Under the pieces are notes generated by a model. The model ran no database searches, had not been told where the DNA came from, and worked only from the letters and a program-made list of their open reading frames with translations. DNA of 50,864 nt, from assembly GCA_002718895.1 (NCBI GenBank), contig PBGD01000003.1, positions 1-50,864 on the forward strand, in the 5' to 3' direction. The DNA is from Flavobacteriales bacterium (lineage in GTDB: Bacteria > Bacteroidota > Bacteroidia > Flavobacteriales > TMED113). The number at the start of each line of letters is the position of its first letter. Positions within the stretch are counted from its first letter, which is position 1. A program made the position numbers and the translations under genes. Of this stretch, positions 4,583-48,776 are shown in pieces.

Positions 4583-4590
4583 CAAAAATA
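4583..4590 (-). promoter_or_regulatory. sucC promoter -7 element
   Basis: On the minus strand this reads TATTTTTG, an exact match to the Bacteroidota sigma-A -7 consensus TAnnTTTG. A TTTG (4615-4618) lies 24 bases upstream as a possible -33 element. The G is 18 bases before the ATG at 4564, giving a short leader of about 13 bases. It overlaps the upstream in-frame ATG and so supports the downstream start. Confidence 0.65.
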
Positions 4591-4636: not shown

Positions 4637-4644
4637 TATCTTTG
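4637..4644 (+). promoter_or_regulatory. DUF5916 gene promoter -7 element (leaderless geometry)
   Basis: TATCTTTG is an exact TAnnTTTG match and stands only five bases before the GTG start at 4650. Since transcription normally begins a few bases after this element, the mRNA probably begins at or next to the start codon. No clear -33 TTTG was found at the usual distance. Confidence 0.6.
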
Positions 4645-4649
4645 ACTAA

Positions 4650-7154
4650 GTGAAGCATTTAACATTTTTTTACATTGTATTTCCATTTATTTTAATCTCA
4701 CAAGCAGAAAAAAAAGAGGTGTTTGCTAAAAGAATTACTGAAAAAGTAACAATAGATGGCAAACTCAATGAAAGTTTTTGGAGTGATATTCAACCAGCTA
4801 AAGATTTTCAAATGATTCAACCTATTAATGGAAAGTTTGAACGATCAAATCAAAAAACTGAAGTAAAATTTGCATATGATGATCAAGCCATATACATTGG
4901 AGCTAGCTTAAATGACTTTGGAGCTGGATATGACAAAAATCAAATTGGTCCTGGAATTATGAGACAACTTGGGCCTCGAGATGTAGAAGGTAAAAGTGTT
5001 GACCTATTTGGTGTTTTTTTAAATCCATTCAATGATGGCATTAATGAATTTAGTTTTCTTGTATCAGCTGCAGGAGTTCAAATAGACAAAAGAATTGTAC
5101 TCACTACAAATGGATATATTGAAGATGTTAATTGGGATGCTGTTTGGGAAAGTGATGTAACTATATATCAAGATGGGTGGTTTGTAGAGATAAAAATCCC
5201 ATATTCTGCAATTAGATTTCCAAATAAGGAAATCCAAGAATGGGGAATAAATATTTACAGAGAACTAAGAAGATTTAGAGAAGAATATTCATGGAGTGTC
5301 ATAGACCTTAAAAAAAAACACATTGGAAAACAAAGTGGAATATTAAAAGGTATTAAGAATATTTCACCTCCAATAAGATTATCACTTACACCCTACCTAT
5401 CCTCAGTATTTACTGACAATTTATCCAACTTTAACTATAGCGGAGGGGTTGATTTAAAGTATGGATTCAATCTACCATTTGCCAAAGAAAATGTTAATCT
5501 AACATTAGACATGATCCTACTACCAGAATTCCAACAAACAGAATTTGATCCATTAGTTCTAAATATGAGTCCATTTGAAACGCAGTATGATGAAAAGAGA
5601 AGTTTTTTCACAGAAGGAACAGAATTATTTAAAAAAGGCGATCTTTTTTACTCTAGAAGAATTGGTGGAACTCCCCTCCCGACTCAATTAGACTCTCATG
5701 AAATTGCTACTTTTGAACCTGAAAATACTAGATTATTTAATGCAACTAAAATTTCAGGAAGAACTCAAGATGGATGGGGAGTAGGACTTTTTAATGGCAT
5801 CACTAGAAATACTTATGCACAAATTCAAGATACAATTACACTTATTGAAAGAGAGCAATTGATTGAACCTGTAACAAATTATAATATGTTTGTAATTGAC
5901 AAAAGCTTTAATCAAAATTCATTCATCACATTATTAAACACAAATGTTACAAGAAAAAATAATTTTAGAAATGCACATGTTGTAGGAATCTTAGGATCTG
6001 TGACAAATAAAAAAAATACCCACTCATATGACGGTAGCATCAAGGGAAGTCTTATCAAAGATAGTGGGAATTCCACATCAGGTTTTTCAACATTCTTCAA
6101 TTTTCAAAAAATTAACGGAAACTTGAGATACAGTTTGCAAAATTATATTGAAAGTGATCAATATGATATTAATGATATGGGTTTCTTATATCAAAATAAT
6201 GAGGTTAATACAGAGTTAAATTTGATTTATGAACTTTTCTCAGAGGATGAACAATTTTCTAAAAAACTAAATATAAAAAGTGGTAAATTCAGTTTAGGTC
6301 TAGAACACAAATCCCTTTACAAACCATTATCTTACAATGAATTAATAATAAAAATCGGTGGACAAATAATGAATAAAAAACATTTGTTTATGCGACTGCA
6401 ATCTAGATATTTTTTTGAAGAAAATGACTACTTTGAATCCAGAGTAAATAATCAACTTTTTATTAGACCTCCCTCTTTCAAAATTAGTTATTATACTTCT
6501 AGTAATTTTAACAAACCTGTATCTTTAAATACTTCTATTTCATACAAACAACGTTTAAATGAAAATTATAAAATTTGGGAGAACTATAATAATAATCTAT
6601 TATATACAAGAATAAATCCAAGGTTTAGAATTAATGATCATGCATTCATACAATATATTCTAGCTATCGAAGCTGAAAAAAATGAATTTGGATGGATAGA
6701 TGAGCTAGAAAATAACATTCCCTTATTTAGTAGAAGAGACCGCAAAATGTTTACAAATAAATTCATACTAGAATATACATTTAATCCCAAAATATATTTA
6801 AAAATGATTACTAGACATTATTGGTCTACAATAGATAATAAAGAGTTTTATAACATAAGTACTAATGGACAACTATCTTACTTTGAAGATCAAAATTTGT
6901 CTGACCTAAATATTAATTTTAATACATGGAACTTAGATTTAAGTTTTTCTTGGGAATACCATCCTGGTTCATATTTGTCAGTTTTATGGCAAAATAAACT
7001 AACTAAACAAACCAGTTCAGTTGAAAGAATATTTTTTAATAATTTAAATTCTTTCTTTGAAAATCCAACTAATAACATCTTTTCAATAAAGTTAACTTAT
7101 TATCTAGACTACATTCAACTTAAAACTTTTAAAAAAAATGATAGAAATAAATAA
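4650..7154 (+). CDS. DUF5916 outer-membrane protein with CBM9-like N-terminal domain
   Basis: The 834-residue protein begins with GTG and has a short signal peptide (about residues 1-19). Residues ~25-230 look like the CBM9-like sandwich of DUF5916 proteins: ITEKVTIDGKLNESFW, then KFAYDDQAIYIGA and NEFSFLVSAAGVQ. The remainder alternates short hydrophobic strands with polar turns and aromatic residues, as in an outer-membrane beta-barrel, which fits the DUF5916 family; the last strands end close to the C-terminus. The function is not established; a role in binding or uptake of carbohydrate or other surface ligands is a guess from the N-terminal fold. The final 17 bases overlap the start of the LolD-type ATPase gene, suggesting coupled translation. 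The GTG choice is backed by the perfect -7 element five bases upstream. Confidence 0.85.
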   Translation: MKHLTFFYIVFPFILISQAEKKEVFAKRITEKVTIDGKLNESFWSDIQPAKDFQMIQPINGKFERSNQKTEVKFAYDDQAIYIGASLNDFGAGYDKNQIGPGIMRQLGPRDVEGKSVDLFGVFLNPFNDGINEFSFLVSAAGVQIDKRIVLTTNGYIEDVNWDAVWESDVTIYQDGWFVEIKIPYSAIRFPNKEIQEWGINIYRELRRFREEYSWSVIDLKKKHIGKQSGILKGIKNISPPIRLSLTPYLSSVFTDNLSNFNYSGGVDLKYGFNLPFAKENVNLTLDMILLPEFQQTEFDPLVLNMSPFETQYDEKRSFFTEGTELFKKGDLFYSRRIGGTPLPTQLDSHEIATFEPENTRLFNATKISGRTQDGWGVGLFNGITRNTYAQIQDTITLIEREQLIEPVTNYNMFVIDKSFNQNSFITLLNTNVTRKNNFRNAHVVGILGSVTNKKNTHSYDGSIKGSLIKDSGNSTSGFSTFFNFQKINGNLRYSLQNYIESDQYDINDMGFLYQNNEVNTELNLIYELFSEDEQFSKKLNIKSGKFSLGLEHKSLYKPLSYNELIIKIGGQIMNKKHLFMRLQSRYFFEENDYFESRVNNQLFIRPPSFKISYYTSSNFNKPVSLNTSISYKQRLNENYKIWENYNNNLLYTRINPRFRINDHAFIQYILAIEAEKNEFGWIDELENNIPLFSRRDRKMFTNKFILEYTFNPKIYLKMITRHYWSTIDNKEFYNISTNGQLSYFEDQNLSDLNINFNTWNLDLSFSWEYHPGSYLSVLWQNKLTKQTSSVERIFFNNLNSFFENPTNNIFSIKLTYYLDYIQLKTFKKNDRNK

Positions 7155-7794
7155 TTTATATAAATCTTTTGACAAACAACAAGTTTTAACAAATGTAAAT
7201 TTACACATAAAAAAAAATGAGATGGTAGCTATCCAAGGGCCATCAGGGGCAGGTAAAACTACTTTACTCAAATCAATTGGACTATTGGATACCATAAATG
7301 GTGGAAATATATTATTTAATGGTAAAGATATAACTAAATATAATCATACAGAAGCCTGTAAATTTAGAAATCAAAAAATCGGATTTGTTTTCCAATTTCA
7401 TAATTTATTGCCTGAATTTAATGCAATAGAAAATATATGCATTCCTGCATTAATCAATAAAACAAAAAGTATTATTGCAGAGGGTAAAGCAAAAGAAATT
7501 ATGAGAAATTTAGACATTATTGATAAAAAATATTCAAAACCCTCCGAACTTTCTGGTGGGGAACAGCAACGTGTCGCTATTGCTAGGGCATTAATTAATT
7601 CTCCTGAAATTATTTTAGCTGATGAACCTACAGGCAATCTTGATTCTAAGCAATCAATGAAAATGTTTGAACTTTTTAACAAAATTTCTAAAGACTTAAA
7701 AACCACATTCATTATAATTACTCATAATAACAAATTAGCTAATATGTGTAATCGAATAATAAAAATTCATGATGGTAAAATTCTTAAATCTTAA
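7138..7794 (+). CDS. LolD-type ABC transporter ATP-binding protein
   Basis: A complete 218-residue ABC ATPase: Walker A GPSGAGKT at 34-41, Q-loop at FQF 85-87, signature LSGGEQQR at 138-145, Walker B with DEPTGNLD at 162-169 and H-loop H196. The DEPTGNLD form and the sequence after the Q-loop ([13 protein letters not shown]) are typical of the MacB/LolD/FtsE group, with LolD the closest. LolD powers release of lipoproteins from the inner membrane by LolCE. No permease gene is nearby, so the partner must be encoded elsewhere, which is usual for LolD in Bacteroidota. It overlaps the DUF5916 gene by 17 bases. The precise transport role is inferred from family resemblance. Confidence 0.85.
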
Positions 7795-7817
7795 ATCTTT
7801 TTAATAATAAAATGATT

Positions 7818-7825
7818 TATTTTTG
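7818..7825 (+). promoter_or_regulatory. BatA-type gene promoter -7 element (leaderless geometry)
   Basis: TATTTTTG is an exact TAnnTTTG match, five bases before the GTG start at 7831. The spacing is the same as at the DUF5916 gene. No -33 TTTG is obvious. Confidence 0.55.
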
Positions 7826-7830
7826 CAAAA

Positions 7831-9840
7831 GTGGAATTTCTTAATCCGTCTTTTTTTATTTTTCTTTTATTATTGGTTATACCAATAATAATTCACTTAT
7901 TTAATTTTAGACAATATCAAAAAATTTACTTCAGCAGTACATTTTTTTTAAAAAATTTAAAAGAACAAAGCAAAACAATAAAAAATATAAGGAAGTGGCT
8001 GATTCTTCTAAATAGACTCTTAATTCTTTCATCATTAGTTATTGCATTTTCATTGCCAATTATTAAAAATCAACAAAATAATCAAAAATCAGATGTAATT
8101 AGTTTTTATATAGATAACTCATATAGTATGAGTAGAATAGATAATCAAAATAATGACTTACTTAAAAACTCGAAATTAAATGTAAAGAAAATTATCACTT
8201 CACTAGAACCATCGCAAAAAGTTTTAATCATAACAAATGATTTTGAACCTAAACACCAAAAATTATATTTTCCTCATGAAGCAATTGCAATCATTGATTC
8301 TATTAAATTTTCTTCCAAATCACTTAAACTTGAAAATATATTCAGAAAAAATGAGCAATTCGCAGATACGATGCAAAATAACAGCCTATATTTATTTTCA
8401 GATTTTCAAAAAGGAAAAAGCTCTCAGGACCTAACATTAAATAAAAAATATAAAATAAAAATTGCCATCTTAGAATCTAATAACAACCTAAATATAAGTA
8501 TAGACTCTTGTTACTTTAAACATCCTATAAGAGAACGAAATCAGCTTGAAAATATGTTGGTCAAAATCACCAACCATGGTCCAGAAGATATTACGTCAAA
8601 AGCTACATTATTTATTGATGATGCAATTAAAGCCAATTATGACATAGAAATTCCTGCATTTTCTTCTGTAACTGAAAAAATGCACTATATAAATCCTGAA
8701 AATAAAAATTTTGTTAATGGCTATATTGAGATTGAAGATTCATCTATGGAGTTTGATAATAAATTATATTTTTCTTATTCATTACAAAATAAGATCCCTG
8801 TAGCAGCAATTACAGATGAAAAACTTTCTAAGTATTTAGAAAATATATTTACGGATTCAATATTTATATTAAATACATATAAAGTACATCAAATTGATTA
8901 TAATCAAATTGCTAAAAACAATTTAGTAGTTTTAGATCAACTTAAGAAAATACCCAATGAAATACTTCCAACATTAAGAGATGTTTTAAATAATGGCAAT
9001 AATATACTTATGTTTCCTAACAATGAATCTGACATAAGAAATTATAACAATATCTTAGAGAATCTGAATGGTCCAAAGTTAACTAAATGGACTAATCAAA
9101 AAAATGAAATTGGTTTAATAAATTATAATCATCCTATTTTTGATAATGTTTTTAAACAAAGAACAAAAAAAATTATATTCCCTAAAGTAAAATATTACTT
9201 CAAATTAAATAATAATTTTAAGAATCAATATTTTGAAATTTTACAATTTTTAAATGGAGAATTATTCTTTGGTGAATATATTTACGGTAAAGGCAGCTTA
9301 TATATTGGATGTAGTGATTTGAATATAGATAATAATAATTTTGCTAAGAATGGTCTATTTATACCAATAATTTACAACACAGCACTAATAGATAATAATT
9401 TAGCTAAATTGTATCATTTTCTTGAAAAAGAAACAATAATTGAGAATAATAAAATCAATTTTGATGATCAAGTCAAATTAGTTAATCACAATAATTTTTA
9501 TTTAATTGCTCAAACCCTTTCATCTCCTCAAAAAACACTCATTAATTTTGGAAACAATATTGAAGAAGCCGGAAATTATGATTTAATACTTCATGATAAG
9601 TTTTTAGAACCTATTTCTTTTAACTTTCAAAGAAATGAAAGTAAAATGCAATTCAATAATTTAACTGAAATAAAAAAATTATTTGAAAAAACTAATTATC
9701 AAATTTTAGATTTAAATCAAAATCAATTAAGTGTAGATTATTCAGAAAATAATAAAAATAAAAACTTAGCACATATATTTATTATTATCTCAATAATATT
9801 AATGATAATTGAACTAATTTTACTAAGAAGATGGAATTAA
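7831..9840 (+). CDS. BatA-domain membrane protein with VWA-like region
   Basis: The 669-residue protein begins with the aerotolerance-type BatA N-terminus: FLNPSFFIFLLLLVIPIIIHLFNFR (membrane segment ~6-25), YFSSTFFLKNLKEQSK, and a second membrane segment around 58-76. A von Willebrand A-like region follows, with a MIDAS-type DNSYSMS near residue 94. A middle region resembles CARDB/glutamine-amidotransferase-like folds, and the C-terminus has a last membrane helix before LLRRWN. Members of this family sit in the inner membrane with the bulk in the periplasm. The biochemical function is unknown; the name comes from Bat proteins linked to aerotolerance. The coding end overlaps the dihydroorotase-like gene by 10 bases, a gene pair found repeatedly in Bacteroidota. 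The start is GTG, supported by the promoter just upstream. Confidence 0.85.
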   Translation: MEFLNPSFFIFLLLLVIPIIIHLFNFRQYQKIYFSSTFFLKNLKEQSKTIKNIRKWLILLNRLLILSSLVIAFSLPIIKNQQNNQKSDVISFYIDNSYSMSRIDNQNNDLLKNSKLNVKKIITSLEPSQKVLIITNDFEPKHQKLYFPHEAIAIIDSIKFSSKSLKLENIFRKNEQFADTMQNNSLYLFSDFQKGKSSQDLTLNKKYKIKIAILESNNNLNISIDSCYFKHPIRERNQLENMLVKITNHGPEDITSKATLFIDDAIKANYDIEIPAFSSVTEKMHYINPENKNFVNGYIEIEDSSMEFDNKLYFSYSLQNKIPVAAITDEKLSKYLENIFTDSIFILNTYKVHQIDYNQIAKNNLVVLDQLKKIPNEILPTLRDVLNNGNNILMFPNNESDIRNYNNILENLNGPKLTKWTNQKNEIGLINYNHPIFDNVFKQRTKKIIFPKVKYYFKLNNNFKNQYFEILQFLNGELFFGEYIYGKGSLYIGCSDLNIDNNNFAKNGLFIPIIYNTALIDNNLAKLYHFLEKETIIENNKINFDDQVKLVNHNNFYLIAQTLSSPQKTLINFGNNIEEAGNYDLILHDKFLEPISFNFQRNESKMQFNNLTEIKKLFEKTNYQILDLNQNQLSVDYSENNKNKNLAHIFIIISIILMIIELILLRRWN

Positions 9841-11114
9841 AAAACAACATTATTATTCGAAATGCTAAAATTATTGATGTTAATTCAAAACATCATAATT
9901 CAAAAAAAGATGTTTTAATTATCAATGGAATTATTAAAGAAATAAAAAAAAATATTGAATTTGAATTACCTTACTTCGAAATCAAAAAAAATAACTTACA
10001 TATCTCCCCAGGTTGGATAGATTTACATACAAGATTAGGAGAACCAGGTTTAGAACATAGAGAAACTATAATCACTGGTCTCAAATCTGCTGCTGATGGA
10101 GGTTTTACCAGTGTGGTAGTGATGCCTAATACAAATCCACCAGTAGATAAAAAAAGTGAAGTTATTTTCTTATTAAAAGAGGGAGCAGATAATATAGTTG
10201 AAGTCCTACCTACTGGATGTGTTACTGAAAAATGTCAACAAAAAAAGATTAGTGAGATGTATGATATGCACTTACATGGTGCAATTGCATTTACTGATGA
10301 CAAAAAAAATATCCAAAATGCAAAACTGATGTCAATAGCTTTAGAATATGTAAAAAATTTTAAAGGCTTAATTATGACCACCAACCTTGATAATAACTTT
10401 AACAAAAATGGCCAAATAAATGAAGGTGTTGTCAGTACTGAACTGGGTTTAGAACCATCACCGGAATTATCAGAAGATCTTATGGTAATGCGGAATCTAA
10501 AATTATTGGAGTACACAAATTCTAAATTACATCTATCAACAATTTCCACAAAAAATAGTTTAAGACAAATTAAAGCAGCAAAAACAAAAAAATTAAAAGT
10601 TTCATCTGACGTAGCAGCACATCAATTAATTTTAAATGATGAATCACTTCGTAATTTTGATACCAATTTAAAAGTTATGCCTCCGTTAAGAGATGAATTA
10701 ACTAGAAAAGCTCTAATTAAAGGGATAAAAGATGGTATAATTGATGCCATTTCATCAGATCATAGCCCTATAGAAATAGAATCTAAAAAATGTGAATTTA
10801 ATAAAGCCGAATTTGGAATTATTGGTTTAGAAACAGTGTTTCCAATTACAAATACTATTTTAAAAGATGATTTAAAATTAGAAGAAATTATCCAACTAAT
10901 TAGTTCAAACCCCAGACAAATCCTTGGCATCAAACAACCTATTATTATAGAAAATCAAAAAGCTAATATTACTCTATTTGATCCAGACCTAAAGTGGTAT
11001 TACCAAGAAGATGACATTCAATCATTGTCCAAAAACAGTCCTTTTATAAATCATCAATTTACAGGTAAAAGTTTAGGAATTATTAACAAGGGAGATGTAT
11101 ATATTAAAGAATAA
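9831..11114 (+). CDS. pyrC: Dihydroorotase-like amidohydrolase, metal ligands missing
   Basis: The 427-residue protein aligns by motif with class I dihydroorotase (COG0044): GWIDLHTRLGEPG at 61-73, VVMPNTNPPVD at 97-106, GAIAFTDD at 150-157, SSDHSP at 308-313 and FGIIGLETVFP at 328-338. Active enzymes need an HxH pair, but here it reads H66-T-R68. The HAED segment reads TTNLDNN near 183-189, and the HVST histidine is replaced in LSTIST (235-240). Asp310 is kept. Such proteins in Bacteroidota are usually annotated as dihydroorotase of the pyrimidine pathway, but the lost ligands suggest a non-catalytic PyrC' or a different chemistry. Codon use and length are intact, so it is not a decaying gene. 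It overlaps the gene upstream by 10 nt and the DUF5723 gene downstream by 11 nt. Confidence 0.8.
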   Translation: MELKNNIIIRNAKIIDVNSKHHNSKKDVLIINGIIKEIKKNIEFELPYFEIKKNNLHISPGWIDLHTRLGEPGLEHRETIITGLKSAADGGFTSVVVMPNTNPPVDKKSEVIFLLKEGADNIVEVLPTGCVTEKCQQKKISEMYDMHLHGAIAFTDDKKNIQNAKLMSIALEYVKNFKGLIMTTNLDNNFNKNGQINEGVVSTELGLEPSPELSEDLMVMRNLKLLEYTNSKLHLSTISTKNSLRQIKAAKTKKLKVSSDVAAHQLILNDESLRNFDTNLKVMPPLRDELTRKALIKGIKDGIIDAISSDHSPIEIESKKCEFNKAEFGIIGLETVFPITNTILKDDLKLEEIIQLISSNPRQILGIKQPIIIENQKANITLFDPDLKWYYQEDDIQSLSKNSPFINHQFTGKSLGIINKGDVYIKE

Positions 11115-16162: not shown

Positions 16163-16179
16163 TCAATAAATTTAATTTT

Positions 16180-16212
16180 TTTGTTCTTTTTTAACAAACT
16201 AACATAAATTTG
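16180..16212 (+). promoter_or_regulatory. Promoter of the 484-residue protein gene
   Basis: A TTTG at 16180-16183 (-33) and a perfect TAnnTTTG (TAAATTTG) at 16205-16212 (-7) are separated by 21 bases, close to the Bacteroidota consensus. The ATG follows 20 bases after the G, leaving a leader of about 15 bases. Confidence 0.7.
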
Positions 16213-23310: not shown

Positions 23311-23318
23311 TATATTTA
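23311..23318 (+). promoter_or_regulatory. Possible -7 element of the carboxylase gene (leaderless geometry)
   Basis: TATATTTA matches TAnnTTTG at all but the last base and ends six bases before the ATG at 23325, the same geometry as the stronger leaderless candidates. Confidence 0.35.
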
Positions 23319-23324
23319 TAATTT

Positions 23325-24962
23325 ATGAGTAAAAATATTGACATAAATTTCAATAAAAACGAAGATAATATGAAACTTCTAGTTTCTTCATTAAAACAAA
23401 AGAAGCAAAAAATAGAAGAGGGGGGAGGTGTGAAAAATATTCGTAAACAACATGAAAAAGGAAAATTAACCGCTAGGGAAAGACTTATTAAAATATTTGA
23501 TTCAGATTCAATTATAATTGACATTGGCACATTTGCTGCAGATGGTATGTATTTGGATTATGGGGGGTGTCCATCCGCAGGGGTCATTATTCAAATTGGA
23601 TATATAAATCAAAGAATTTGTATTGTTGTTGCAAATGACTCTACTGTGAAATCTGGTGCATGGTTCCCTATGACTGCAAAAAAAAATCTTCGTGCTCAAG
23701 AAATATGTATGAAAAATTATATCCCAATAATATATTTAGTGGATAGTGCTGGAGTATTTCTGCCTCTTCAAGATGAAATTTTTCCTGATAAAGAGCATTT
23801 TGGTAGACAATTTAGAAATAATGCTAAAATATCTGCTATGGGTATTCCTCAGATATCATCTATTATGGGAAGTTGTGTAGCTGGGGGAGCATATTTGCCG
23901 ATAATGTGTGATGAAGCATTAATTGTAGAAAAAACAGGGAGTGTTTTCTTAGCAGGTTCACATTTAGTTAAAGCAGCGATTGGGGAAGATGTAGACAATG
24001 AAAAGTTGGGAGGTGCTAATACACATTGTAACATTTCTGGAGTAACTGACTATAAATGTAAAAATGAAAATGAAGCTATTAAAATTATTAGGGAATTAGT
24101 ATCAAATATAGAGGATAAAAAAAACAACTCTTTTTCAAGAATAAAAAGCAAAAATCCTATTAAAAATATTGAAGAAATATATGGTATTTTACCTAAAGAC
24201 AGAGACAAACCATATAACATGAAACATGTGTTGGAGAGAATTACAGATGATAGTTATTTAAGAGAGTATAAAGCAGATTATGGCAAAACACTAATATGTG
24301 GATATGCAAGAATAGATGGATGGTCCGTAGGTATAATCGCTAACCAAAGAAAAATTGTGAAAAATGGAAAAGGGGAAATGCAATTAGGTGGTGTGATATA
24401 CTCTGACTCAGCTGATAAAGCTGCTAGATTTATTATGAATTGTAATCAAAAGGGTATTCCTTTATTGTTTATTCAAGATGTAAATGGATTCATGGTTGGA
24501 TCAAGAGCTGAAGAAAACGGGATTATCAAGGATGGTGCAAAAATGGTTAATGCAATGGCAAATAGTACTGTTCCAAAATTCACATTAATTATCGGTAATT
24601 CTTATGGTGCAGGCAATTATGCTATGTGTGGTAAAGCATATGATCCAGATTTAATTCTAGCATGGCCGACTGCACAAATTGCAGTAATGGGTGGTGATCA
24701 AGCAGCCAAAGTTCTACTAAATTTAGAAGAAAATAAATTAAAAAAAAATAATCAAATTTTAAAAAAAAGTGATAAATCTAATCTATTGAAGAAGATTAAG
24801 GAGAAATATAACTCTCAAATGCAACCCTACTATGCTGCTTCAAGACTATGGATAGATGAAATTATTGATCCAAAGGATACAAGAAAATTTATTTCAATGG
24901 GTATAGAAATGGCCAATAATAATAATAGAAAAGAATTCAAAACGGGTGTTCTTCAAACTTAA
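23325..24962 (+). CDS. Acyl-CoA carboxylase carboxyltransferase (beta) subunit
   Basis: The 545-residue protein is of the biotin-dependent carboxyltransferase family. It contains GKLTARERLIKIFD, FLPLQDEIFPDKEHFGRQF (methylcrotonyl-CoA carboxylase-type), GSCVAGGAYLP, and FIQDVNGFMVGSRAE, plus the C-terminal GGDQAAKVL and PYYAASRLWIDEIIDP. It transfers carboxyl from carboxybiotin to an acyl-CoA (3-methylcrotonyl-CoA in leucine breakdown, or a propionyl-/geranyl-type substrate). No biotin carboxylase or carrier gene is next to it, so the alpha subunit must lie elsewhere. The family call is firm; the substrate is inferred from the MCC-like LQDEIFPDKEHFG motif. Its end precedes thrS by 37 bases. 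Confidence 0.9.
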   Translation: MSKNIDINFNKNEDNMKLLVSSLKQKKQKIEEGGGVKNIRKQHEKGKLTARERLIKIFDSDSIIIDIGTFAADGMYLDYGGCPSAGVIIQIGYINQRICIVVANDSTVKSGAWFPMTAKKNLRAQEICMKNYIPIIYLVDSAGVFLPLQDEIFPDKEHFGRQFRNNAKISAMGIPQISSIMGSCVAGGAYLPIMCDEALIVEKTGSVFLAGSHLVKAAIGEDVDNEKLGGANTHCNISGVTDYKCKNENEAIKIIRELVSNIEDKKNNSFSRIKSKNPIKNIEEIYGILPKDRDKPYNMKHVLERITDDSYLREYKADYGKTLICGYARIDGWSVGIIANQRKIVKNGKGEMQLGGVIYSDSADKAARFIMNCNQKGIPLLFIQDVNGFMVGSRAEENGIIKDGAKMVNAMANSTVPKFTLIIGNSYGAGNYAMCGKAYDPDLILAWPTAQIAVMGGDQAAKVLLNLEENKLKKNNQILKKSDKSNLLKKIKEKYNSQMQPYYAASRLWIDEIIDPKDTRKFISMGIEMANNNNRKEFKTGVLQT

Positions 24963-24999: not shown

Positions 25000-26949
25000 G
25001 TGGTTCAAATTAAATTTCCAGATAATACAGTTAAAAAATTCCAGCAAGGAATTACTCCATATGAAATTGCGAAAAATATCAGTCATGGGCTAGCTAGGAA
25101 TATACTTATAGCAAAGGTTAATGGTAAAATTGTTGACACAAATCAATCAATTCATTCAAAAAATATCGTAGATATTGAATTAATTACCTGGGAACATGAT
25201 TTGGGGAAAAAAGTAATGTGGCATTCAAGTGCTCATGTAATGGCCGAAGCAATTCAATTCTTTTATCCAAAGGCTAAATTTACAATTGGTCCCCCAATTG
25301 AGAACGGATTTTATTATGATATAGATTTTTCAAAAAATGACACTTTTTCATCTGAAGATTTTTCTAAGATAGAAAATAAAATGATCGAAATTGCGAAACA
25401 AAAAAAAGAGTTTATTGTTTCAAAAATATCAAAAAAAGAGGCATTAAATTATTATATAAAAAAAGAAAATCAATATAAAATAGAATTAATTAATGATTTA
25501 AAAGATGGTGAAATAACTTTCTACCAACAAGGAAATTTTACAGATTTATGCAAGGGACCACATATACCCAATACTGGATTTATTAAAGCTATCAAATTAA
25601 TGAATGTAGCAGGTGCATATTGGAAAGGCGATGAAAAAAATAAACAATTGACAAGAATATATGGAATATCATTTCCTAAGAAAAAATATCTAGATGAATA
25701 CATAATTAATTTAGAAGAAGCTAGAAAAAGAGATCACAGAAAAATTGGTAAAGATATGTCATTGTTCACTTTTTCAAATAAGGTTGGACAAGGACTTCCT
25801 ATGTGGCTGCCTAAAGGAACTTATCTAAGAGATAGACTCATTCAATTCATGCAAAAAAAACAAGAAGATCTTGGATACCTTCCTGTTGTTACTCCTCATA
25901 TTGGCTCTAAGGAATTATATGTTTGTTCAGGACATTATGAAAAATATGGTGAAGATTCATTTCAACCCATTAAGACTCCAAATGAAAACGAAGAATTTTT
26001 CTTGAAACCAATGAATTGCCCTCATCATTGCGAAATTTATAAATCAGAACCTAGATCATATAAAGATTTGCCAATTAGATTAGCTGAGTTTGGGACAGTG
26101 TATAGATATGAACAAAGTGGTGAACTTCACGGACTAACCAGAGTAAGAGGCTTTACTCAAGATGATGCACATATTTTTGCAATGCCTGAACAAGTCCAAA
26201 GTGAATTTGAGGCAGTCATAGAATTAGTTCTAGAAGTATTAGATTCAATGGGATTTAAAAATTATACAGCTCAAATTTCACTTAGAGATAAAATAAATCA
26301 AGATAAATATATTGGCAATAAATCTAATTGGGACCTAGCTGAAAAAGCAATTATTCAATCTACTAAAAATAAAGGACTTAAAACTGTGATAGAACATGGT
26401 GAGGCTGCATTTTATGGCCCAAAGCTTGATTTTATGATTAAAGATGCATTAGGCAGAAATTGGCAACTTGGAACTATACAAGTTGATTATAATTTACCTG
26501 AACGTTTTAATTTAAAATATAAAGGACAGGATGATAAAATGTATCAACCTGTTATGATACATAGAGCTCCCTTTGGTTCTCTTGAAAGATTTATCGCACT
26601 CTTGATTGAACATACTGGTGGAAATTTTCCACTATGGCTGACTCCAGATCAAGTAATTATTCTGCCAATAAGTAAAAAATATAACGAATACTCAAATAAA
26701 CTTTTAAAATCACTGAAAAATTACGATATTCGCGGCCATGTTGATGATAGAAATGAAACAACTGGAAAGAAGATAAGAGAAGCTGAGTTAAAAAAAATTC
26801 CATTTATGTTAATTATTGGAGAAAAAGAAATATCTAATAATTTATTATCAATACGTGAACATGGTGGAAAAAATTTAGGAGAAATGACAATAGTTGATTT
26901 TGTAGAATTAATTTCAACTAAAATTTCATCAGAGCTTAAAAAGAAATAG
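25000..26949 (+). CDS. thrS: Threonyl-tRNA synthetase
   Basis: The 649-residue cytosolic class II aminoacyl-tRNA synthetase starts with GTG. Domains in order: TGS (1-~62), second additional editing domain containing HSSAHVMAEA and DLCKGPHIP (zinc/editing residues), catalytic core with FLKPMNCPHHCEIY (metal-binding Cys), RLAEFGTVYRYEQSGELHGL (motif 2) and APFGSLERFIALLIEH (motif 3), and the anticodon-binding domain from ~545. It charges tRNA-Thr. It heads the unit thrS-infC-rpmI-rplT, with only short gaps, so translation factors and ribosomal proteins are co-expressed with it. The GTG start is the only one that gives the normal TGS beginning. Confidence 0.96.
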   Translation: MVQIKFPDNTVKKFQQGITPYEIAKNISHGLARNILIAKVNGKIVDTNQSIHSKNIVDIELITWEHDLGKKVMWHSSAHVMAEAIQFFYPKAKFTIGPPIENGFYYDIDFSKNDTFSSEDFSKIENKMIEIAKQKKEFIVSKISKKEALNYYIKKENQYKIELINDLKDGEITFYQQGNFTDLCKGPHIPNTGFIKAIKLMNVAGAYWKGDEKNKQLTRIYGISFPKKKYLDEYIINLEEARKRDHRKIGKDMSLFTFSNKVGQGLPMWLPKGTYLRDRLIQFMQKKQEDLGYLPVVTPHIGSKELYVCSGHYEKYGEDSFQPIKTPNENEEFFLKPMNCPHHCEIYKSEPRSYKDLPIRLAEFGTVYRYEQSGELHGLTRVRGFTQDDAHIFAMPEQVQSEFEAVIELVLEVLDSMGFKNYTAQISLRDKINQDKYIGNKSNWDLAEKAIIQSTKNKGLKTVIEHGEAAFYGPKLDFMIKDALGRNWQLGTIQVDYNLPERFNLKYKGQDDKMYQPVMIHRAPFGSLERFIALLIEHTGGNFPLWLTPDQVIILPISKKYNEYSNKLLKSLKNYDIRGHVDDRNETTGKKIREAELKKIPFMLIIGEKEISNNLLSIREHGGKNLGEMTIVDFVELISTKISSELKKK

Positions 26950-32294: not shown

Positions 32295-32312
32295 ATTTAT
32301 AAATTTATAAAT
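32295..32312. repeat. 18-base palindrome abutting a start codon
   Basis: ATTTATAAATTTATAAAT is a perfect palindrome that ends at the base before the ATG at 32313. It includes TAAATTTA (32300-32307), one base off the TAnnTTTG -7 element and five bases before the ATG. It may be an operator overlapping a leaderless promoter, or chance in AT-rich DNA. Confidence 0.4.
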
Positions 32313-44783: not shown

Positions 44784-46436
<1,653 letters not shown>

Positions 46437-46449
46437 TCAATTATGTTAT

Positions 46450-48762
46450 TTAAAATGACCAATTGATTCCTAAACTTGGCATAATGGGTAATTGATTAAC
46501 TCGTACAGCATTAATTCTATTGTAATAGAAAATATTATCTCTATCATATAGATTTGTTACACCAAAAGAAATTTCTAAATGATTATTAGAATTAAATTTA
46601 AATATTCTCTTAATTGACAAGTCTAATCTATGGTATTCAGGTAGTCTTCCAGTATTTAAATCAGCATACAAAACACCTAATTCTCCATTTAAAGTATATA
46701 TATCAGTATTAGCTCCATTATTTAAATTAATATTTTCATAATAACCTTTTGTTTTAGTAAATGGGAAACCCGAACCGTAGTTCCATCTCAAACTAAGTTC
46801 CCAATTTTTCTTTGAATCAATTAAATAAGATAAAAGCAAGTTAACATTATGTCTTCTGTCATAATGTGGATAATAAATCGATTCTTCATCCTCTCTATTA
46901 ATTATGCCATAAGAATAAACAGTCCATAAATTTATTCTATCAGAATTATATTTAATCAAAAAATCTAAACCTTTAGCTAAACCCTTTTCAATAATAAATA
47001 TCTTCTTTTGATAATCTGGAACATCTTCAAATTCAGGTGTGTCAGTATAAATTTGATTATTATTCTGTGAAATGAGTTGTGAAAAATCTTTAATATATCC
47101 TTCAATATTTATGTCAATTTTTGCACCTAAATCATATTCAAATCCAAGCAAAAAATGAGTAGCTTTTTGGAGGGAGGATTCAACAACTTCCCCTTGAAAA
47201 GTAGTTGGCAAACTAGTAGTGCTAGATAAAAAACCAGAAAATAAGTTAATAACATTACGCTCACTTGTACTAGACATCAAGTTTTGTGAAAACAAACCAA
47301 AAGAACTTTTAAGTCGAATTCTTTCTGTTAAATTATATTTTAAACCAGCCCTTGGCTCTAAAGAAGTTTCACCTAAAGAAGTGTAATTTTGGAGTCTTAA
47401 ACTAGGCTCTAAAATAAGACGTCCATTTCCATTATTAAATTTGTAGTTAACATAAGCTGCAAATTCTGTTGAATGATCTTCATGCTCAATCAAGGTATTT
47501 GCTGAATTTCTAAATAAGAGTTCTGTTGTATATCCAAGTAATTCTGCACCATATTTCAATTCATGTTTCTTTGAAATGAAGTAAAAAAAATCTAAACCAA
47601 CATTAAATCCATCAACTATACTTGAATTAAGAGGCTCTTCATGATTTTGTTGATTAATTTCATAATTAGAATACGCTAATTTTCCTTCGATTAACATCTT
47701 AGCTGAAGATGGAACTAAAATTAAATTAGATCCAAAACCATAGGTAGTCCAATTCAAATTAGTAATATTCTGATAATCTACATCATCATTAAATCCAAAA
47801 CCATAAATATTTAATTTACTTCCTGTTTTTCCTGAAAAAGACATTTTACCATAAATATCTAAAAAAGAATAAGGTAAGTCTGTATCATTTAAATATGAGT
47901 AGATAGATTTAGAAGTTATATCTAAGTAAGATTTTTTAGCACTTAAAAGAAATGAATTGGAAATATCATTTTTTGATTTTATAATAGGTCCTTCTAACAA
48001 CAATTTAGAACTAAATGTATTACCTGATATTTTTCCTGCTAAACGTTTTTTATTTCCATCTCTTGTCTTAATATCCATTATTGAAGATATTCTTCCACCA
48101 TATTGAGCTCCAAAACCACCAGTATAGATGTCAGCCTTTTTTATTATATCTGTATCGAAAACAGAGAAAAAGCCTATTGAATGAAAAGGACTATATACAA
48201 CCATTCCATCAAGTAAAACTTTATTATGAATAGGTGCCCCTCCTCTAATATAAATTTGACCTCCCTGATCACCGGTAAATACCACTCCAGGTAAGACTTG
48301 TAAAAATTGAGCTAAATCTGGTTCTCCCCCTATACTAGGCAACTTATTAATTGTTTTACTTGTTAATTTAACGACTCCGGTATTAACTTGAGTTTTCATT
48401 TCATCTCTAGCTGCATTAATGGTAATGTTGTCTAGCTGAAGAGATTCGGTAGTCAAAAAACACTTTTTAGTTATTACTTGAATTTCATTATTTAATTCAA
48501 AGTCAATAAAGTAATCTTTATAACCTATGAAACTCACTTGAAGTTTATACTTTCCATAAGGAATATCCGAAATAATAAAATAACCATTATCGTCTGTAGA
48601 AGTACCAAAATCGGTGCCAGAGACAAAAACATTTGCAAATATAACTACCTCTTCAGATGCTTCCTCATAGACAAAACCTCTAATTGTTCCAGTTTGCGAA
48701 AAGGTAAACATGGAAAAAAAATATAAGAAAATAAAATATTTTAATACATCGAGATTATTCAT
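46450..48762 (-). CDS. TonB-dependent receptor with carboxypeptidase-like domain
   Basis: The 770-residue protein has a signal peptide ending near FTFSQ. A carboxypeptidase-regulatory-like domain follows (~28-105: GTIRGFVYEEASEEVV, YFIISDIPYGKYKLQVSFIGY), and then a plug domain (INAARDEMKTQVNTGVVKL, QGGQIYIRGGAPIHNKVLLDGMVVYSP). The rest is an outer-membrane barrel ending in SLGINWSF. It should import a ligand across the outer membrane with TonB energy; the ligand is unknown and no SusD partner is nearby. An apparent upstream start at 48771 is a TTG inside the -7 element and is rejected; ATG 48762 gives a proper signal peptide. It is downstream of holA. Confidence 0.9.
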   Translation of the reverse strand: MNNLDVLKYFIFLYFFSMFTFSQTGTIRGFVYEEASEEVVIFANVFVSGTDFGTSTDDNGYFIISDIPYGKYKLQVSFIGYKDYFIDFELNNEIQVITKKCFLTTESLQLDNITINAARDEMKTQVNTGVVKLTSKTINKLPSIGGEPDLAQFLQVLPGVVFTGDQGGQIYIRGGAPIHNKVLLDGMVVYSPFHSIGFFSVFDTDIIKKADIYTGGFGAQYGGRISSIMDIKTRDGNKKRLAGKISGNTFSSKLLLEGPIIKSKNDISNSFLLSAKKSYLDITSKSIYSYLNDTDLPYSFLDIYGKMSFSGKTGSKLNIYGFGFNDDVDYQNITNLNWTTYGFGSNLILVPSSAKMLIEGKLAYSNYEINQQNHEEPLNSSIVDGFNVGLDFFYFISKKHELKYGAELLGYTTELLFRNSANTLIEHEDHSTEFAAYVNYKFNNGNGRLILEPSLRLQNYTSLGETSLEPRAGLKYNLTERIRLKSSFGLFSQNLMSSTSERNVINLFSGFLSSTTSLPTTFQGEVVESSLQKATHFLLGFEYDLGAKIDINIEGYIKDFSQLISQNNNQIYTDTPEFEDVPDYQKKIFIIEKGLAKGLDFLIKYNSDRINLWTVYSYGIINREDEESIYYPHYDRRHNVNLLLSYLIDSKKNWELSLRWNYGSGFPFTKTKGYYENINLNNGANTDIYTLNGELGVLYADLNTGRLPEYHRLDLSIKRIFKFNSNNHLEISFGVTNLYDRDNIFYYNRINAVRVNQLPIMPSLGINWSF

Positions 48763-48768
48763 AGCACA

Positions 48769-48776
48769 CAAATATA
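48769..48776 (-). promoter_or_regulatory. TonB-dependent receptor promoter -7 element (leaderless geometry)
   Basis: On the minus strand TATATTTG is an exact TAnnTTTG match, ending six bases before the ATG at 48762. A TTTG lies 24 bases upstream (48801-48804) as a possible -33 element. The transcript probably begins at or near the start codon. Confidence 0.6.

Follow-up and report, generated by a model that had tools for sequence, protein, structure and literature searches.

Promoter elements four to seven bases before start codons predict a leaderless class of mRNAs in a Flavobacteriales genome

Promoter elements and genes in the window

The stretch of DNA analysed here (the window, 50,864 nucleotides) makes up the beginning of a 93-kb contig from a Flavobacteriales bacterium whose assembly totals 1,343,137 bases, and is 85% complete and 4.5% contaminated. 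Three of its genes, encoding a DUF5916 protein, a BatA-type protein and a TonB-dependent receptor, carry an exact TAnnTTTG element directly ahead of the start codon (Table 1). We use "gap" throughout for the number of bases between the last base of TAnnTTTG and the start codon. A sequence-only reading of the window had reported these elements at gaps of 5, 5 and 6, and we confirmed all three. It also held that three such hits are more than chance would give; in shuffled sequence, gaps 5-6 are occupied 2.4 times per 1173 genes, or about 0.1 times per 47 window genes, which bears this out.

The same reading listed one-mismatch copies (TAnnTTTA) at a gap of 6 before 23325 and 5 before 32313. Both are there, but the list was incomplete, as it missed a copy at a gap of 4 before the MBL-fold hydrolase (ATG 16162). 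This last copy, TAAATTTA, is kept together with its gap of 4 in the orthologue from the related genome G004. The other two are weak, since TATATTTA before the carboxyl transferase at 23325 is not conserved in the G004 orthologue, and the start of the DUF7672 gene is ambiguous (32313 or 32319). The remaining exact elements had been placed 18-23 bases from their starts, which is roughly right; we find gaps of 15, 18, 20, 23 and 37 upstream of window genes.

The sucC gene (leadered, gap 18) and the DUF5916 gene (leaderless geometry, gap 5) diverge from a single 85-base intergenic region and form a natural paired comparison of both modes.

Table 1. Promoter elements in the window and the genes with predicted leaderless or near-leaderless starts.
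Feature	Position	Strand	Detail
-7 element TATCTTTG	4637..4644	+	5 bases before GTG 4650
DUF5916 gene, signal peptide, GTG start, predicted leaderless	4650..7154	+	PF19313 E=3e-173
-7 element TATTTTTG	7818..7825	+	5 bases before GTG 7831
BatA-type gene, GTG start, predicted leaderless	7831..9840	+	PF07584 aligned from residue 1
-7 element TATATTTG	48769..48776	-	6 bases before ATG 48762
TonB-dependent receptor (CarbopepD_reg_2, Plug), ATG start, predicted near-leaderless	46450..48762	-	signal-peptide start
One-mismatch element TAAATTTA	16167..16174	-	4 bases before ATG 16162 (MBL-fold hydrolase)
One-mismatch element TATATTTA	23311..23318	+	6 bases before ATG 23325 (carboxyl transferase)
One-mismatch element TAAATTTA	32300..32307	+	5 bases before ATG 32313 (DUF7672)
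Contrast, leadered element TATTTTTG	4583..4590	-	18 bases before sucC ATG 4564
Contrast, leadered element TAAATTTG	16205..16212	+	20 bases before ATG 16233
Contrast, leadered element TACTTTTG	46415..46422	-	23 bases before CTP synthase ATG 46391

A discrete short-gap peak across the genome

We scanned the whole assembly (1173 predicted genes, GC ~29%), taking gene starts from our own Markov gene finder, which ignores upstream sequence, and setting the chance level with 500 dinucleotide-shuffled versions of these genes' upstream regions. Exact TAnnTTTG elements occur at gaps 4-7 before 31 genes, against a shuffle mean of 4.8 and a maximum of 12, with 13, 8, 6 and 4 genes at gaps 4, 5, 6 and 7, respectively. 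Counting the spacing genome-wide against shuffled sequence had been proposed beforehand, and over gaps 4-6 it gives 27 genes vs 3.6, a number reached in 0 of 500 shuffles. The expected peak at 5-6 bases was therefore partly right: a short-gap peak exists, but its true range is 4-7, with the maximum at 4. Gaps 8-13 are at chance level (6 genes vs 7.0 in shuffles), followed by a broad leadered peak at gaps 18-34 (112 genes vs about 20 expected). Of the genes that have an exact element no more than 40 bases away, about one fifth belong to the short-gap class. The peak remains without three GC-outlier contigs (29 genes vs 6 at gaps 8-13). For TAnnTTTA the background is about 6.5 per position and the excess lies mainly at gap 4 (18 seen); with such a background, single TAnnTTTA matches are individually weak.

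One divergent pair elsewhere in the assembly (G000:C19:59898-62102) has leaderless geometry at both promoters (gaps 5 and 4) within a 57-base intergenic region. Its members are a gene for a short RbfA-like protein, judged by eye (GTG 60233, - strand), and an ABC-transporter-like gene (ATG 60291, + strand). Contig G000:C1 has 39.6% GC within the 29% GC assembly and carries what by eye is a second thrS-like gene (the window thrS lies at 25000); this contig is probably contamination. We found no 16S 3' end in the assembly.

Promoter character of the elements

Genome-wide, TAnnTTTG is enriched above chance at gene starts, and the elements of both peaks resemble promoters in their composition. G seldom follows the element directly (0/31 in the short-gap set and 5/120 in the leadered set vs 211/911 for intragenic copies; p=6e-4 and 7e-8, respectively), and G is also avoided at the variable positions of the element. 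The DNA upstream of the elements in both peaks is more AT-rich than that around intragenic copies. No enrichment of a TTG/TTTG at -33 was seen in the leaderless set or in the leadered one, which counts against the promoter reading; this signal is weak in F. johnsoniae too (PMC6847099), so it does not discriminate. In that species, transcription starts 4-5 nt after the -7 element (PMC6847099). Given this distance, gaps of 4-5 would correspond to leaders of 0-1 nt, and gaps of 6-7 to leaders of at most 3 nt.

Start codons and GTG use

Start codons in the exact short-gap set are ATG in 25 cases and GTG in six, all six of the latter at gaps 4-5. The sequence-only reading had remarked that two of its three exact cases use GTG. 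In this genome, GTG is indeed over-represented in the short-gap class (6/31 vs 45/1142, p=0.0016), but the remark does not extend further: small samples of relatives held no GTG among the exact short-gap elements, and a family-wide count of the GTGAA pattern gave no clear excess (48 at gaps 4-5 vs 41 at gaps 10-11). GTG enrichment is not supported as a general rule, as it was not replicated in the sampled relatives or family-wide, and we treat it as a lead only.

Conservation in orthologues

The DUF5916 gene is preceded by TATCTTTG at gap 5 in its six nearest genomes, its own included, which span four genera. Three of these six use GTG, and the orthologues L177 and L190 have GTG at the same spacing. 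L177 (G003:C7:9833-12331) has one internal in-frame TAA, reflecting either a pseudogene or a sequence error. More distant DUF5916 genes of the same family (L180-L184) have TATATTTA at a gap of 8-9, a spacing that is rare elsewhere. For BatA, 15 orthologues drawn from six other families of the order carry TAnnTTTG at a gap of 6-7; within its own family, two genomes have TAnnTTTG at gap 7 and four others TAnnTTTA at gap 5. The element was absent from all four f3 orthologues of BatA examined.

For the TonB-dependent receptor, gaps of 5-8 are found in 9 of 11 orthologues from the same family (19-22 in the other two), while in other families 4 of 5 orthologues have gaps of 16-29. As the short gaps lie within the family and the leadered gaps in other families, its promoter seems to have moved from a leadered to a near-leaderless position within the family. 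Among reciprocal best hits with G004, the short-gap geometry (last base G or A) was common to 8/14, against 14/242 (p=1.7e-6). This conservation in orthologues supports a function for the predicted leaderless geometry.

The DUF5916 and BatA genes are near neighbours, and their order is kept across several families (window 4650-11114; G004:C11, G021:C2 and G024:C1). In the window, a LolD-like ABC ATPase gene lies between them and a dihydroorotase gene follows, an arrangement that suggests a functional cluster.

Distribution across the order, class and phylum

We sampled up to 400 kb each from G021 (family f11), G004 (f1) and G055 (f3, a large genome). G021 has 13 genes at a gap of exactly 4, none at 5-6 and three at 7. 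G004 has six exact short-gap genes in addition to a TAnnTTTA peak (25 at gaps 4-7, 13 over gaps 8-13), while G055 has only three short-gap genes vs 54 at gaps 18-34. As a share of element-bearing genes, the short-gap class amounts to about 20% in this genome, about one quarter in the f11 sample and about 4% in the large-genome relative from f3.

Across the order, we counted the pattern TANNTTTG-N-ATGAA in 89 genomes, with 4209 matches at gaps 4-7, 2850 at 9-12 and 4459 at 20-23. Not every ATG in such pattern counts is a start, so only the differences between counts carry weight. The short-gap excess is strongest in f11 and f8. By the same count it is absent from f16, with genomes of 0.3-0.6 Mb, and from the small-genome families f9, f10 and f12, so genome size alone is insufficient as an explanation. 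The excess recurs in other orders of the class (487 vs 281) but is lacking in other classes of the phylum, included as a negative control (1247 vs 1224, a ratio of 1.02). An excess limited to the class is as expected if the geometry depends on the Bacteroidia sigma factor.

Interpretation and alternative explanations

From the observed peak, its specificity and its conservation, we infer where transcription starts and how translation begins. Very probably, the short-gap elements belong to ordinary primary-sigma promoters of the Bacteroidia (sigma-ABfr type), in which TAnnTTTG lies 4-7 bases before the start codon. RNA polymerase would start on the start codon or up to three bases before it, and the resulting mRNA would be leaderless or have a leader of 0-3 nt. 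Ribosomes would need to initiate at an AUG or GUG lying at the 5' terminus, with neither a Shine-Dalgarno sequence nor an A-rich leader ahead of it. Provided the usual TSS distance holds, the promoter box excludes any leader longer than 3 nt, and gaps of 6-7 leave space for one of 1-3 nt. In this genome, such promoters form a discrete minority class. The near-empty zone at gaps 8-13 sets them apart from those of leadered genes, whose elements lie some 14 bases or more from the start, and, being so sparsely occupied, suggests that leaders some 4-9 nt long are disfavoured. The leaderless reading of the window is supported by the genome-wide peak taken together with the F. johnsoniae TSS distance and the conservation in orthologues.

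In an AT-rich genome, a motif so short and AT-rich could match by chance. By composition, about 100 copies are expected in the window, where 79 occur, and single one-mismatch matches are near background. However, none of the 500 shuffles reached the 31 genes seen against 4.8 expected. Seven rearranged motifs gave no comparable short-gap peak genome-wide, internal in-frame ATGs used as decoys gave no peak (5 matches at gaps 4-7 among 1408 ATGs), and the geometry is conserved across families. Chance is thus refuted for the class and scarcely credible as the explanation, although it is a possible source of individual one-mismatch copies. The called starts could also be wrong, with the true starts lying downstream behind normal leaders, and downstream coding scores are indeed close for the TonB-dependent receptor and BatA. 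This is highly improbable: the alignment of BatA to PF07584 begins at its first residue, which fixes its GTG start, the DUF5916 protein and the TonB-dependent receptor begin with signal peptides at the called starts, and the orthologues of BatA and DUF5916 align from residue 1. Further, the peak remains when only unambiguous starts with a large score margin are kept (19 genes vs 5 at gaps 8-13).

The promoters could be real, yet most protein be made from longer transcripts that begin at upstream promoters, leaving leaderless RNA a minor product. BatA, which starts 36 bases after the co-directional LolD-like gene, in the DUF5916 cluster conserved in relatives, would suit such an arrangement, and with this gene so placed, leadered read-through transcripts may coexist there. 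For 16 of the 31 genes with leaderless geometry, however, the preceding gene is divergent and hence offers no sense read-through; DUF5916 itself is divergent to sucC. Upstream promoters as the main source of protein seem very improbable, and leaderless or near-leaderless mRNA from the short-gap promoters is the reading we prefer.

Relation to known leaderless systems

In Mycobacterium, leaderless genes carry their promoter box immediately ahead of the start codon, which is either ATG or GTG. That system differs from the present one in its sigma factor and box, its high GC and its larger share of genes (PMC4633059, PMC3898074). In other bacteria, leaderless initiation proceeds via a ribosome-bound initiator tRNA that recognises the 5' AUG (summarised in PMC10783764). 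Leaderless mRNAs are also already known in flavobacteria, and the kind is not new: in F. psychrophilum they are 5.5% of mapped mRNAs (PMC9723704), the same phenomenon as here, although shown there by TSS mapping and predicted here from sequence. The leadered primary-sigma promoters of F. johnsoniae and Bacteroides share the -7 element, the avoidance of G inside it and the lack of a Shine-Dalgarno sequence with those described here. However, 87% of leaders in F. johnsoniae are longer than 10 nt, and only 3.7% of 5' UTRs in B. theta are shorter than 10 nt, in contrast to the separate peak at 4-7 bases in this genome (PMC6847099, PMC7366714). What we add is a discrete, conserved spacing class and its dependence on lineage; a literature search covering few subscription journals found no earlier account of the spacing class, its conservation in orthologues or its lineage dependence.

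Zheng et al. (2011) likewise inferred leaderless genes from a TA-led promoter box near the start. Searching for Pribnow-like signals, they found leaderless genes in 1/37 Bacteroidetes/Chlorobi genomes (2.4%), and conceded a possible underestimate for this group (PMC3160421). Later work on gene starts described Bacteroidetes/Chlorobi ribosome binding sites as AT-rich and non-canonical. Judging by promoter spacing, the predicted leaderless arrangement is commoner than earlier genome surveys suggested.

Bacteroidota are a standard case of bacteria that have kept leaders while losing the use of Shine-Dalgarno sequences, and work on gene starts treats their genomes as non-SD and leadered. For several small-genome families of the order (f8, f11 and, to a lesser extent, f1), we see an even chance of a different picture. 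Translation there would begin in one of two discrete modes, either leaderless or behind a leader of roughly 10 nt upwards, and selection would act against intermediate lengths. Leaderless starts would come close to leadered ones in frequency, and promoters would have changed from leadered to leaderless during evolution, as seems to be the case for the TonB-dependent receptor. As the class can be read from sequence and varies between families, it offers a route to studying leaderless starts on such ribosomes. It also predicts transcription start sites to within a few bases, and aids the assignment of start codons, GTG among them, in the genomes of many uncultured organisms.
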